Positions 201 through 6,170 of a stretch of 6,170 nt of DNA are shown one piece after another. The notes beneath the pieces are model-generated. The model saw only the letters and a list, made by a program, of their open reading frames with translations. It searched no databases and had not been told where the DNA came from. Source of the DNA: Selenomonas sp. (GTDB lineage Bacteria > Bacillota_C > Negativicutes > Selenomonadales > Selenomonadaceae); contig NZ_JAILKR010000074.1 of assembly GCF_024693525.1 (NCBI RefSeq), forward strand, positions 1 to 6,170, in the 5' to 3' direction. How positions within the stretch are numbered: position 1 is the first letter of the stretch; every line of letters starts with the position of its first letter. The position numbers and the translations under genes were made by a program.

Positions 201-1562
201 TTATTGGGAACAGTTTGTTTTTGTGCGAAGAATCTTTAAGATAATGCCGATGACAAGTCCTAGCAGGGCGGGGAGAATCCAGCCAAATCCTTGGGCGAAA
301 AAAGGCAGGACAGCGGTTAGGGCAGTCACGAATTCATTAAGGCCGAAAGCGGTGAGCCAGGCTGGTGGCAGTGCTTTTATAAAGTCAAAGACGGAACTAA
401 ACACTACCATGGTCATGATACTGCGGATAACCAGGCGGTCAAGGCCGCAGATATGACCCGCCAGCGAGGTCAGTGTCAGCATGATGGCAATGGGATAAAG
501 CATCATGAACACGGGAATGGAAAATTGGATGATGGCCGACAGGCCCACATTGGCAATCAAAAAGGTAATAATAGCAAAGGCTATAGACAGCTGCTCATAG
601 GTGAATTTGCCGGGGAACATCGCCACTAAGGCCTCAGAACAGCTGGTAATCAGTCCGATAACGGTCTTGAGGCAGGCGAAAAGTACGATTAGAGCCAGTA
701 AGGCCGCACCGGCGTCTGAGAAATAATAAGAGGAAATTGACGCGAGGACAGCGCCACCATTGCCGTTTATGGGGGCATAGCCGCGGCTTTCCGCACCGGC
801 AAGGGATACGAGGATGTAGATGATACCCATGAGCAGGCAGCTGAATACACCGGCTTTGACGGTGTTTTTGGCGATGGCGCCAGAATCCTTAATGCCCAGC
901 TTGCGGATGACATCGACGACGATGATGCCAAAGGCAAGTCCTGCCAAGGTATCCATGGTGTTATAGCCGTCAAGCAGCCCTTGGAGAACTGGCGCCGTGG
1001 TATAGGCTGGTGTGGGGGTAAAGGCGGTGATGGGGCTGGTGGGCTGGGTGAGAGCTGCCACCAACAGGATGCCAAGTACCACGAGGAAAAGCGGCGTCAG
1101 GATTTTGCCGGTCCAGACAAGTATTTTGCCGGGGCGCAGGGAGAACCAGAGGGCAGCGGCCATAAAGGCCAGAGAAAAGAGGAACAAGGCCAGCTGTTCA
1201 TTAAAGCCAGCAGGCAGCAAGGCTTTAGCGCCGATTTCAAAAGGGACGGTAACACAGCGGGGGCTGGCAAAGAAGGGGCCGATGGTGAGATACAGGGCAC
1301 AGGTAAAGATTAGCCCAAACCGGCGGCCAATGCGCTGGCTTAGATTCAAGAGGCCGCTGCTGCCGGTAATACCCAGTGCTGTCACGGCCAGCATAGGCAT
1401 GCCTACGCCGGTAATGAGAAAGCCGGCCAGCGCATACCAGACATTGCTGCCGGCTTCCTGGCCCATAAAGGCCGGAAAAATCAAGTTGCCGGCCCCGAAG
1501 AACAGGCCGAATAGCATGCTGGTAATGGAGAGGGTTTCTCCCCAGGTAAGGTTTGTTTTCAC
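201..1562 (-). CDS. brnQ: Branched-chain amino acid:cation symporter, BrnQ/LIVCS family
   Basis: This is an inner-membrane secondary transporter that, by family, brings in leucine, isoleucine and valine with Na+ or H+. The protein is 453 aa, close to the usual 430-450, and hydrophobic throughout, consistent with about 12 membrane helices. Family signatures are LFGLFFGAGNLIFP (residues 17-30), GPFFASPRCVTVPFE (95-109, matching the conserved GPxFAxPR region) and GYNTMDTLAGLAFG (199-212). The start is GTG (1560-1562), supported by AGGAGTG 8 bases upstream (1571-1577 on the plus strand); no better ATG is nearby. It is transcribed alone, divergently from the Fur-controlled sRNA candidate. Its leader contains a small palindrome (ACAGG at 1605-1609, CCTGT at 1614-1618) that could be an operator. 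No T-box motif and no strong promoter is seen in the leader, and no clear hairpin terminator follows the stop. The family call is firm; the exact substrate is inferred. Confidence 0.95.
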   Translation of the reverse strand: MKTNLTWGETLSITSMLFGLFFGAGNLIFPAFMGQEAGSNVWYALAGFLITGVGMPMLAVTALGITGSSGLLNLSQRIGRRFGLIFTCALYLTIGPFFASPRCVTVPFEIGAKALLPAGFNEQLALFLFSLAFMAAALWFSLRPGKILVWTGKILTPLFLVVLGILLVAALTQPTSPITAFTPTPAYTTAPVLQGLLDGYNTMDTLAGLAFGIIVVDVIRKLGIKDSGAIAKNTVKAGVFSCLLMGIIYILVSLAGAESRGYAPINGNGGAVLASISSYYFSDAGAALLALIVLFACLKTVIGLITSCSEALVAMFPGKFTYEQLSIAFAIITFLIANVGLSAIIQFSIPVFMMLYPIAIMLTLTSLAGHICGLDRLVIRSIMTMVVFSSVFDFIKALPPAWLTAFGLNEFVTALTAVLPFFAQGFGWILPALLGLVIGIILKILRTKTNCSQ

Positions 1563-1683: not shown

Positions 1684-1712
1684 TTGACAATGATTATCAA
1701 TTGGGGTATATT
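1684..1712 (+). promoter_or_regulatory. Sigma-70-type promoter of the sRNA candidate
   Basis: TTGACA (1684-1689, a perfect -35), a 17-base spacer and TATATT (1707-1712, 5 of 6 for the -10) form a near-consensus promoter pointing right. Transcription should begin at about 1719-1720. No convincing ORF follows before the terminator at 1812-1852. Confidence 0.85.
1685..1699. promoter_or_regulatory. Fur box (7-1-7) inside the sRNA promoter
   Basis: TGACAAT-G-ATTATCA matches the 7-1-7 Fur consensus TGATAAT-N-ATTATCA with a single mismatch at the fourth base. It overlaps the -35 and fills most of the -35/-10 spacer, so an iron-loaded Fur would block polymerase. The expected behaviour is repression in iron-rich cells and expression in iron starvation. 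A paralogue such as Zur or PerR recognises related sites and cannot be excluded. Confidence 0.8.
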
Positions 1713-1718
1713 ATCTAT

Positions 1719-1855
1719 AGGCTTTCGTTAAGGCAATTGGTTGGAGCGTGGAGGCGCTTCCGGTTGTCGGGTGCATTTAGCACCAAGCTCTCCTAAAATA
1801 TAATACACAGCAAAAATGGCGATTCGTACTGCTCATGCGAATCGCCATTTTTGTG
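1719..1855 (+). ncRNA. Candidate Fur-regulated small RNA (about 135 nt)
   Basis: A near-consensus promoter with a Fur box and a strong terminator bracket about 90 bases lacking any convincing ORF. The predicted transcript has three hairpins. The first pairs 1743-1748 with 1755-1760 (6 pairs including one G-U, loop UGGAGG). The second pairs GGUGC (1770-1774) with GCACC (1780-1784) around AUUUA. The third is the terminator. Between hairpins two and three lies a stretch with CUCUCCU (1788-1794), complementary to Shine-Dalgarno sequences. This layout resembles iron-sparing sRNAs such as RyhB and FsrA, which silence iron-using proteins under iron limitation. That function is inferred from layout, not from sequence similarity, and I recognise no known family. 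GGAG stretches upstream could pair with the CU-rich segment, so its exposure is uncertain. The ends are predicted to within a few bases. Confidence 0.65.
1812..1852. terminator. Bidirectional intrinsic terminator (sRNA and mazG)
   Basis: A 15-bp perfect stem pairs 1812-1826 with 1838-1852 around an 11-base loop. It starts with AAAAA and ends with TTTTT, so it reads as a terminator on both strands. On the plus strand it ends the sRNA candidate. On the minus strand it lies about 20 bases beyond the mazG stop codon. Confidence 0.9.
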
Positions 1856-1871
1856 TGCAATTTATAAAGGC

Positions 1872-2351
1872 TTATTGCAGGCCCTTTCTCTTTTCAGCCC
1901 GGGCGATGAGTTCCCGCCCTTCGCGGAAGGCGGCGGGCAGAAAGTCGTCTTCCCATTCCCGGCCGCGTTTTTCCATTTTCTTGATTTCTTTCCAATCGGT
2001 AACGGGATCGCCGTTTTCATCGGTCAGCGGTTCGTGGAAGATATGCGGGTGACGGCGAATCATTTTGCCCGCCGAGGCTTTGGCCACATCCTGCAAGGTA
2101 AAGAGCCCTTCTTTTTCGGCCAGGCAGGCATGGAAAACCACCTGCAGCAGCAGATCTCCTAGTTCTTCCTTCAGGTTTTCGGCATTGCCGGTTTCCCGGA
2201 GGATATTGATACCGGCCAAAACTTCGCAGGCTTCTTCGATGCAGCCCGGTTTTACGCTTTCGTGGGTTTGGGTACTGTCCCAAGGGCAGCCATCCTCGGA
2301 TTGGAGTTTTTTGACGATTGTTTCGAGACGCTTTACTTCATCATGATTCAT
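1872..2351 (-). CDS. mazG: MazG-family nucleoside triphosphate pyrophosphohydrolase
   Basis: By family it is a cytoplasmic enzyme that hydrolyses (d)NTPs to the monophosphate and pyrophosphate, cleaning abnormal nucleotides from the pool. Motifs in the 159-aa product are GCPWD (21-25), the Mg-binding EExxE (E39, E40, E43), ExxD (E63, D66, within EELGDLLLQVVFH) and RRHPHIF (99-105). All catalytic acidic residues are present. It matches only the N-terminal half of the two-domain, roughly 260-aa E. coli MazG, so it is a single-domain form. The start at 2349-2351 is chosen because AAGG lies 6 bases upstream. An in-frame ATG 13 codons further up (2388-2390) has no ribosome site and falls at or before the predicted transcription start. 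The gene is monocistronic and convergent with the sRNA candidate. Confidence 0.93.
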   Translation of the reverse strand: MNHDEVKRLETIVKKLQSEDGCPWDSTQTHESVKPGCIEEACEVLAGINILRETGNAENLKEELGDLLLQVVFHACLAEKEGLFTLQDVAKASAGKMIRRHPHIFHEPLTDENGDPVTDWKEIKKMEKRGREWEDDFLPAAFREGRELIARAEKRKGLQ

Positions 2352-2397
2352 AATGGACCTTCTCTTCCTGTCAGCTGGCAAACTTCTCATAGGCGTA

Positions 2398-5838: not shown

Positions 5839-6039
5839 GCCGCCGCTAGGGGCAGTGCCAACACTACGCGGGAGATGTTTTTCTAAACGAAATTTTTATC
5901 TTTAATTAAGCATCGAAAAAGTTGCAAAACGCGCTTCGCTTGAACGGTAGCAATTTTTCGACGAACGATGAGGATAAAAATTTCGTTCTTCACGAAAAAC
6001 ATCAAACGCTTCGTTTATGGCACTGCCCCTAGCGGCGGC
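5839..6039 (+). repeat. Structured repeat, copy B (complete, about 200 bases)
   Basis: This is a nested inverted repeat that could fold into one long hairpin. The outer arms 5839-5860 and 6018-6039 are a perfect 22-base inverted pair. Inside them, GATGTTTTT (5874-5882) pairs with 5995-6003 and the 15-base arm 5886-5900 pairs perfectly with 5973-5987. The core stem 5914-5925 pairs with 5950-5960 (11 bp, one bulge) around a 24-base loop. Two internal asymmetric loops separate the stem blocks. TTTAATTAAG (5901-5910) lies just before the core. The loop segment 5927-5942 is identical to the reverse complement of 33-48 in copy A. The arm 6004-6017 contains a small self-complementary AAACG-CTT-CGTTT. 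It contains no gene. It could be a cruciform-forming mobile or REP-like element, or a structured transcript. Confidence 0.88.
5914..5960. repeat. Core hairpin of repeat copy B
   Basis: CGAAAAAGTTGC (5914-5925) pairs with GCAATTTTTCG (5950-5960) with one bulged base. The loop carries GCTTCGC (5933-5939), the reverse complement of the GCGAAGC in copy A. The stem sequence differs from copy A while pairing is kept. Confidence 0.8.
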
Positions 6040-6108
6040 TGAGTCTGTGGCAAGTTTCGCGGGGCTACCCCCTCCGAGGGCGCAGCAATTCGTGCCGGCT
6101 TTAACCGA
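6040..6108. other. GC-rich linker between repeat copies B and C
   Basis: These 69 bases separate the end of copy B from the outer box of copy C. They hold two overlapping GC-rich palindromes, GGGG-CTA-CCCC (6061-6071) and CCCTC-C-GAGGG (6070-6080). I see no promoter or gene. It may be part of a larger repeat unit. Confidence 0.45.
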
Positions 6109-6170
6109 GGCGGCGGGGGCCCCAGTACCATAAGCGTAGCCTTGACGTTCCGCGTGAAGCAAGAAATTTT
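6109..6170 (+). repeat. Structured repeat, copy C (truncated by the right edge)
   Basis: The first arm of another copy begins with a 22-base box at 6109-6130, the exact reverse complement of 115-136 in copy A. It continues to CAAGAAATTTT (6160-6170), the exact reverse complement of 79-89. The distance between the two blocks (29 bases) is close to that in copy A (25 bases). The box aligns with that of copy B (5839-5860) but has GGGGCCCC where copy B has a TAGGGGC-type centre. The core hairpin would lie beyond the window. Confidence 0.75.

Follow-up and report, generated by a model that had tools for sequence, protein, structure and literature searches.

The intergenic locus and its promoter

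The interval between brnQ and mazG in the 6,170-nucleotide stretch of DNA analysed here (the window) poses the question of whether the short plus-strand unit that it contains is a gene in its own right and, if so, what that gene would regulate. We consider it very probable, on the strength of the comparisons below, that positions 1684–1857 constitute the gene for a trans-acting, Fur-repressed, iron-sparing sRNA of about 140 nt, which RNA would be accompanied, in many Selenomonas genomes, by a family of probable sponge RNAs. The features of the locus are the following:

201–1562, minus strand: brnQ, branched-chain amino acid transport (Pfam PF05525), divergent from the sRNA
1684–1712, plus strand: sigma-70-type promoter TTGACA-17-TATATT, with 11 of 12 consensus positions
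1685–1699, plus strand: Fur-box-like palindrome TGACAATGATTATCA within the -35/-10 promoter region, read directly
1719–1857, plus strand: predicted sRNA, long form, the 5' end inferred from the spacing to the -10 and the 3' end from the terminator
1732–1768, plus strand: extra hairpin of the long form (predicted fold and alignment), not in compact copies
1770–1784, plus strand: second small hairpin, GGTGC-ATTTA-GCACC (predicted fold)
1785–1811, plus strand: conserved core AAGCTCTCCTAAAATATAATACACAGC, the predicted target-pairing region
1811–1853, plus strand: intrinsic terminator, with arms 1811–1826/1838–1853 and the conserved loop TACTGCTCAT
1872–2390, minus strand: mazG (Pfam PF03819), convergent with the sRNA

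Among the 12 promoter-like sites listed by a scan of the window, TTGACA-17-TATATT scored the highest, and this promoter is present as the first-pass annotation had described it; an element like it precedes most of the copies of the unit elsewhere. The Fur box consensus is TGATAATNATTATCA, with which TGACAATGATTATCA agrees, as had been claimed, at 14 of 15 positions, the N being counted and the sequence being read directly against the consensus. Sites scoring at least 14/15 numbered none in 2.4 Mb of a congener and two in one Markov simulation of equal length. That the interval, being short, intergenic and bounded by a promoter and a terminator, is merely an untranslated leader or the 3' end of a neighbouring gene—the circumstance that the annotation had named as fatal to its own proposal—strikes us as scarcely credible: the two flanking genes, brnQ and mazG, are read from the minus strand, so that a plus-strand transcript would be the leader of neither, and the proposed unit, which brings a promoter and a terminator of its own, is found again at many loci beside other genes.

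A multi-copy family in the Selenomonadaceae

The window interval is one member of a multi-copy family of predicted sRNA genes of the Selenomonadaceae. With positions 1600–1900 as the query, BLAST gave matches in 27 of 41 genomes, frequently at several places in each, and the 22 genomes of the nearest genome's genus set were all matched. The copies occur in two forms: a compact one of about 75 nt, consisting of a GGCUUU-CGUU-AAAGCU hairpin, the core and the terminator; and a long one, that of the window included, which carries additional hairpin sequence inside the 5' stem. The exact 27-nt core was present in 44 stretches of named genomes, all of them titled Selenomonas, Centipeda, or uncultured Selenomonadaceae/Selenomonadales; none was found in viral contigs, nor did the phage records searched with the copy from TAM6421 give any match.

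A covariance model built from 21 compact copies (R1) matched, at E ≤0.001, 79 of 300 genomes of the class, 76 belonging to the same family and three lying outside, with up to seven matches per genome on chromosome and plasmid; these counts also take in copies that are degenerate or reduced to the terminator (e.g., G019:C10:154002, G012:C1:249683 and L165–L169), wherever such copies reached E 0.001, and we do not regard them as working genes. TAM6421 (G019) has seven R1 matches, two of which, on the plasmid pSRC1, are without a full promoter. The promoter with its Fur box, the 5' hairpin, the core and the terminator all recur among the copies while the flanks differ, which is the pattern that the annotation had asked for; conservation of the terminator alone, which it had set down as counting against a gene, was looked for, and the conservation extends far beyond that element.

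The number of R1 matches per genome, their presence on both chromosome and plasmid, and an IS110-family element apparently inside the copies of G020 and G021 might suggest a small repeat or a MITE-like mobile element, spread with no regulatory role, as the nature of the copies. We regard that explanation as very improbable, because the promoter, the core and compensatory stem changes are retained while the flanks differ, and because the core tracks the ribosome-binding sites (RBSs) of iron genes.

Several unusual copies deserve mention. Two loci from other families of the class (L056 2277–2523 and L177 1468–1683) each contain two tandem diverged copies 70–100 bp apart, with a palindromic box upstream and the core CTCTCCAAAATATAAAATACAC, which arrangement suggests that the family is older than the Selenomonadaceae. 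In G020 and G021 (L026 298–479, L049 1–1700, L050 1–1715, L051 1–1700) a mobile element of about 1.6 kb is apparently inserted in the conserved core of the sRNA, and apparently brings its own 3' half of the sRNA; the 428-aa ORF of that element (L050 102–1388, minus strand) is an IS110-family transposase (Pfam PF01548, PF02371). Finally, about 155 bp of foreign sequence separate the promoter part from the core in L011 (G018) and L013 (G010), an interruption that probably breaks the gene in both.

Predicted structure and the conserved core

Model R1 matches the window at 1719–1848 (68.2 bits, E 7.6e-15), and the segment 1719–1857 folds at -59 kcal/mol, the shuffled sequences giving -36.7 ± 3.6 (z -6.2). 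In the predicted fold an outer stem (1720–1724/1785–1789) closes both 5' hairpins; when the segment folded was 1722–1855, three 5' bases short, that stem was absent. Of the two short hairpins claimed earlier both are present, but the first, at 1732–1768, is not short. Its GGAG loop (1750–1753) sits in the block AGCGTGGAGGCGC (1745–1757), which is common to the long copies L003–L006 and L023–L025 amid an otherwise variable insert. A GGA in a hairpin loop is a feature of CsrA binding, and CsrA was found in 22 of 26 relatives; the GGAG-loop hairpin resembles such a CsrA-binding loop, or might base-pair with the CUCC of the copy itself.

The 25-nt core AAGCUCUCCUAAAAUAUAAUACACA is nearly invariant, with its middle unpaired: positions 1785–1789 are engaged in the outer stem of the predicted fold, CUCCUAAAAUAUAAUA (1790–1805) is free, and 1806–1809 may pair with the 3' tail in the model. 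In 38 aligned copies, 24 of the 25 columns of AAGCTCTCCTAAAATATAATACACA are identical throughout, which invariance is overstated for the distant genera, since part of that set was collected through an exact match to the core; cores in distant genera differ by a few letters. The CUCUCCU stretch (1788–1794) that had been proposed to pair with ribosome-binding sites is indeed conserved, and its CUCCU is free, but its first two letters lie in the outer stem and the unit of conservation is the entire block 1785–1811.

The terminator that had been described is likewise present, though with a stem of 16 rather than 15 bp, whose arms are fully complementary; a simple terminator scan of the window had missed this 16-bp stem. 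Its symmetric A/T flanks suggest that it could also stop transcription of mazG on the opposite strand. The stem covaries, with compensatory changes in 6 of 16 predicted pairs in one alignment (A3) and in 5 of 8 in another (A1), and while the terminator stems thus vary the core is fixed and the loop mostly so. A protein-coding reading of the interval was considered and rejected, since covarying stems are combined with a fixed core and with a 5' insert of variable length between copies.

Probable control by Fur and the presence of Hfq

FUR-family proteins were found in all 26 relatives, at one to four in each, and Hfq in 24 of the 26, the nearest genome (G001) included. Inspection of 47 distinct promoter strings showed a Fur-box variant, as judged by eye, in 42, the other five having been mis-picked or shifted by the regular expression used. 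The commonest box of the compact copies, TGATTTTCATTCTCA, agrees with the Fur consensus at 12 of 15 positions, a score that occurs 241 times in 2.4 Mb of the congener. Neither a consensus scan nor a matrix scan of that congener brought out a clean, broad iron regulon: the two top sites of the matrix scan were the genome's own sRNA promoters, which had contributed to the matrix; many other top sites were intragenic; and the remainder included a box pair upstream of feoB (named from Pfam) and a site preceding an ABC ATPase that by eye resembles SufC. Since the box is recurrent, weaker in the compact copies, and accompanied by a regulon that is merely hinted at, we judge Fur control of the sRNA to be likely. 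A Fur-box promoter, as in the iron-sparing class, is present at the level of sequence, and so are the attributes of a trans-acting RNA of the Hfq type: a promoter of its own, a partly unpaired seed, a rho-independent terminator, and Hfq in the genomes of the relatives.

As a separate observation, paired Fur-like boxes 34–44 bp apart occur in the congener at G012:C1 199050/199094, 239329/239371 and 2387581/2387615, one of these sets being upstream of feoB; perhaps such pairs represent the layout of Fur operators in the genus.

Predicted targets in a congener and across genera

The target scan covered 2.4 of the 2.83 Mb (85%) of one congeneric genome, G012, in which 2,247 crude start regions were scored against the core with mRNA folding ignored. 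In the best sites the core would pair nearly end to end across the Shine-Dalgarno sequence, the top energies being those of a radical-SAM protein (-29.9 kcal/mol), a DUF362/4Fe-4S protein (-28.8) and a rubrerythrin-like protein (-24.7), with a Prismane/CO-dehydrogenase-family protein (-22.7) and a rubrerythrin (-21.6) following. Uninterrupted Watson–Crick complements to the core at starts reached 20 pairs, and those of at least 13 nt numbered 5 in the 2,247 starts versus about 0.2 with shuffled-tail cores; the five belong to DUF362/Fer4, a rubrerythrin, RnfC, a NUBPL/Mrp Fe-S carrier and a rubrerythrin-like protein. Of the 20 top genes by energy, 9 carry domains for iron or Fe-S in Pfam (radical SAM, DUF362/Fer4, two rubrerythrin types, two Prismane, Fer2_BFD, NUBPL and RnfC) versus none of 20 random genes, which latter set was drawn outside the top 100 and contained one FeoB transporter; the third of the top-20 proteins was scanned in Pfam by its first 60 residues only. 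The other 11 top genes, with no iron domain in Pfam, encode transporters, a porin-like protein, a methyltransferase, a reverse transcriptase and others.

The controls differ in how far they set the real core apart. Proteins with a Cys motif made up 6 of the top 30 versus 58 of the 2,247 overall (p 8e-5), and their counts in the top 10, 20 and 50 were 2, 4 and 6 versus maxima of 2, 3 and 5 with 40 shuffled cores, a modest excess; the lowest energy among those shuffled cores was -27.7 kcal/mol versus the -29.9 of the real one. The 10 sites at or below -18 kcal/mol are inside the range of the shuffled-tail controls (mean 6.9, maximum 14, 12 shuffles). Prediction against Shine-Dalgarno regions, which the annotation had recommended as a check, thus yields near-full-length core complements at the RBSs of iron and Fe-S proteins, and the pairing characteristic of the iron-sparing class is thereby found in silico. 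A crude search of six genomes for a Shine-Dalgarno-plus-ATG form of the target was uninformative (65 matches versus 45 with the reversed control), and the minus strand of the sRNA genes themselves made up 16 of the 65. A 20-nt target word gave 126 matches in 81 genomes versus 30 with the reversed controls; many of these being sRNA genes, the word search was used solely for locating sites.

For co-variation of core and target site we compared, in the case of DUF362, the upstream 120 nt of 20 orthologues, one per genome, from 10 genera with 7 distinct cores, one core being taken per genus. With the core of their own genus the leaders gave a mean of -17.7 kcal/mol versus -15.8 (sd 0.49) with permuted cores, none of 5,000 permutations being as low, and shuffled tails gave a mean of -12.4 and a lowest value of -14.9 in 300 trials; the own core was the best or tied in only 12 of the 20 genomes. 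At one position core and site are both C/G in G281 and T/A in the Selenomonas genome G013.

On pSRC1, where 17 genes were examined, the lowest energy was that of a C-GCAxxG gene beside an sRNA copy (-15.3 kcal/mol, the next being -13.7), and in the G012 scan the sixth place is taken by another member of its Pfam family. This C-GCAxxG-C-C redox gene (L325 4351–4749) is convergent beside the sRNA/sponge pair of the plasmid; the gene table of PLSDB, which is incomplete, has no feature under that pair.

One to four FUR-family proteins per relative, together with a compact-copy box at only 12/15, leave room for a trans-acting sRNA under a PerR- or Zur-like repressor of that family that responds to peroxide or to another metal, and rubrerythrins and hybrid-cluster proteins have roles in oxidative or nitrosative stress as well. 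We nevertheless find that explanation unlikely, in view of the 14/15 box of the window, of the pair of Fur-like boxes that precedes feoB in the congener, and of the RnfC, NUBPL and radical-SAM targets, which fit an iron economy better.

A second predicted RNA adjoining many sRNA copies

A conserved unit (A4) lies directly upstream of 12 sRNA copies and would produce an RNA of about 65 nt from its own -35/-10; both that element and the lack of a Fur box were read by eye. Its terminator stem covaries in 6 of 15 pairs, and TGTGTATT is in the loop of all 12 aligned copies. The free 5' end of this RNA, UAGGAGAGC, is antisense to the core segment GCUCUCCUA, and its terminator loop, UGUGUAUU, to the core segment AAUACACA, the predicted pairing energies being -17.6 and -9.4 kcal/mol, respectively; both antisense segments are unpaired in the predicted folds. 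Both halves are present in 22 of 23 copies examined, and their joint occurrence was matched in 0 of 300 shuffles for 21 copies and in 1 of 300 for one; the exception, L161 (46.7 bits), does not pass that test (20 of 300) and was kept in the set. That count is partly circular, and so is the finding that the unit exposes conserved stretches able to pair with the sRNA seed, as a sponge would, since the pattern and the model used to collect the copies themselves include the antisense segments; the part that is not circular is that those segments are the best-kept unpaired portions of an independent unit.

The corresponding covariance model (R2) matched 21 of 300 genomes of the class, the strong matches being in the window's genus (10 of its 16 genomes in the set having a match) and in one other. 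Eleven matches at or below 30.8 bits (L148–L155, L162–L164) were excluded from the sponge counts as likely chance terminators, of which L153 does contain GGAGAGCG. An R2 search of G012, the genome of the target scan, gave no sponge match, and the window likewise contains no second RNA; the nearest genome has one at another of its sRNA copies (L021). The second RNA is downstream of the sRNA in G002, G003 and G014, and occurs also at L157, L170, L160 and L144, where the locus as fetched gave no match to the sRNA. Compared with a colinear duplex its two halves have changed places, and one sponge may accordingly hold a single sRNA, in a kissing geometry, or two of them at a time.

We conclude that the 65-nt RNA is probably a dedicated sponge that titrates the sRNA. 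A possible though clearly less favoured explanation is that it is no sponge, but a regulator or a target in its own right that the Fur-controlled RNA partly silences: the complementarity between the two is symmetric, and the copies with no sRNA match at their loci may have targets of their own. Against this, the two exposed segments are the halves of the mRNA target site, swapped, as in a target mimic, and there is no other conserved exposed segment except a small central hairpin.

Proposed circuit and comparison with known systems

Under the preferred interpretation, that of an iron-sparing sRNA with its sponge, Fe-Fur would cover the promoter when iron is plentiful, as the box suggests, and the RNA would be transcribed when iron is scarce. 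The 25-nt core would then pair over RBSs resembling UGUGUAUU-AUAU-UUUAGGAG, to which it is complementary in silico, and would block translation of iron and Fe-S proteins, thus sparing iron, probably with the assistance of Hfq. Many Selenomonas genomes, those of the window's nearest kin included, would also make the 65-nt RNA from its own promoter, which RNA probably titrates the sRNA through its unpaired antisense halves and might in this manner set an iron threshold. The iron-sparing architecture originally claimed is in this way supported in silico by the Fur-box promoter, the conserved core, and the complements at the RBSs of iron proteins. The multiplicity of the family, and the apparent antagonist beside many of its copies, were beyond what the annotation could have read from the window. 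By a small margin of belief we favour a broader proposal: that the iron economy of the Selenomonadaceae is a two-RNA circuit, in which a multi-copy Fur-repressed sRNA, with the 25-nt core as its targeting word, and co-spreading 65-nt target mimics, promoter-bearing and with no visible Fur box, together set the iron threshold of a strain through the dosage of each RNA.

The RNA matched no Rfam family. With E up to 10 allowed, the window had chance hits only, none reaching a gathering score; ten related loci at the gathering threshold gave only tRNAs; and the RyhB covariance model matched neither the window (E up to 10) nor the ten loci (gathering threshold). Nor was there a match in the window or those loci to any other Rfam sRNA family, a negative that would extend to FsrA and IsrR if these are modelled in Rfam. 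These searches agree with the annotation's statement that no known family was recognizable. Among the matches listed, moreover, the open-licence literature on Negativicutes, Selenomonas and Veillonella offered no description of this RNA, so that the suggestion of a hitherto undescribed Negativicutes analogue holds within that scope.

Like RyhB of the enterobacteria, the sRNA is predicted to be Fur-controlled and to lower the levels of iron-using proteins. It differs from RyhB in belonging to another phylum, in having no Rfam match, and in its up to seven model matches per genome; furthermore, uninterrupted pairing of 20 nt with a target, as predicted here, is unusual for RyhB. FsrA of Bacillus, also of the Bacillota, is a Fur-regulated iron-sparing sRNA with C/U-rich pairing segments and a single copy; the present RNA shares with it the phylum, the Fur box and a C/U-rich pairing segment, and is distinguished from it by its multiple copies and by the lack of an Rfam match.

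Since the copies within one genome share the core, the same targets would be expected of them; in Salmonella, RyhB-1 and RyhB-2 have a stretch of 33 identical bp in common and are able to act on the same targets (PMC8383071). IsrR of Staphylococcus is described as an iron-repressed sRNA acting against the mRNAs of iron-containing enzymes, with three C-rich regions and an Hfq-independent activity, and as not orthologous to RyhB although targets are shared (PMC9410917); the present RNA, with one core, several gene copies, and Hfq in most relatives, is set apart from it by those described features.

Sponges, too, have precedents. The CU-rich, RyhB-like CjNC140 of Campylobacter jejuni is bound directly by the GA-rich CjNC110, which is discussed as a sponge (PMC10470494), and one sponge RNA of Caulobacter, CrfA, inactivates the four sibling sRNAs SisA-D (PMC12559287). 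By comparison with the former description, the two halves of the target site lie together on the partner here, which adjoins many sRNA copies. CrfA, unlike the sponge proposed here, is induced by carbon starvation, with no link to iron mentioned in the abstract (PMC12559287). As further antagonists, 3'ETS-leuZ sponges RyhB under non-inducing conditions (PMC8383071), and CJnc190 is opposed by the cis-encoded CJnc180 (PMC8687705); the former is a by-product of a tRNA precursor and CJnc180 is encoded antisense to its partner, whereas the second RNA here would be a separate, promoter-bearing gene neighbouring that of the sRNA. Sponges of sibling and of RyhB-like sRNAs being known, each part of the circuit is of a known kind; the combination of sRNA and sponge as linked multi-copy genes was not described in the literature searched.

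If the proposal is true, the family would be another independent invention of an iron-sparing sRNA, this time in rumen and oral members of the diderm Bacillota (Negativicutes), a class for which the same literature, among the matches listed, contained no sRNA studies. Since the target sites are long and readable, the regulon would be predictable from sequence, and co-variation across genera could serve as a check on it. It would likewise be unusual for an sRNA to have multiplied jointly with a sponge dedicated to it, as the adjacent antagonist would imply, and the setting of a threshold by gene dosage would be testable across natural strains.

As a minor observation on the window itself, its ends (1–170 and 5840–6140) are inverted copies of a GC-rich repeat, whose arms 115–136 and 6109–6130 are 100% complementary; this is perhaps an intergenic repeat family that flanks the block of genes.
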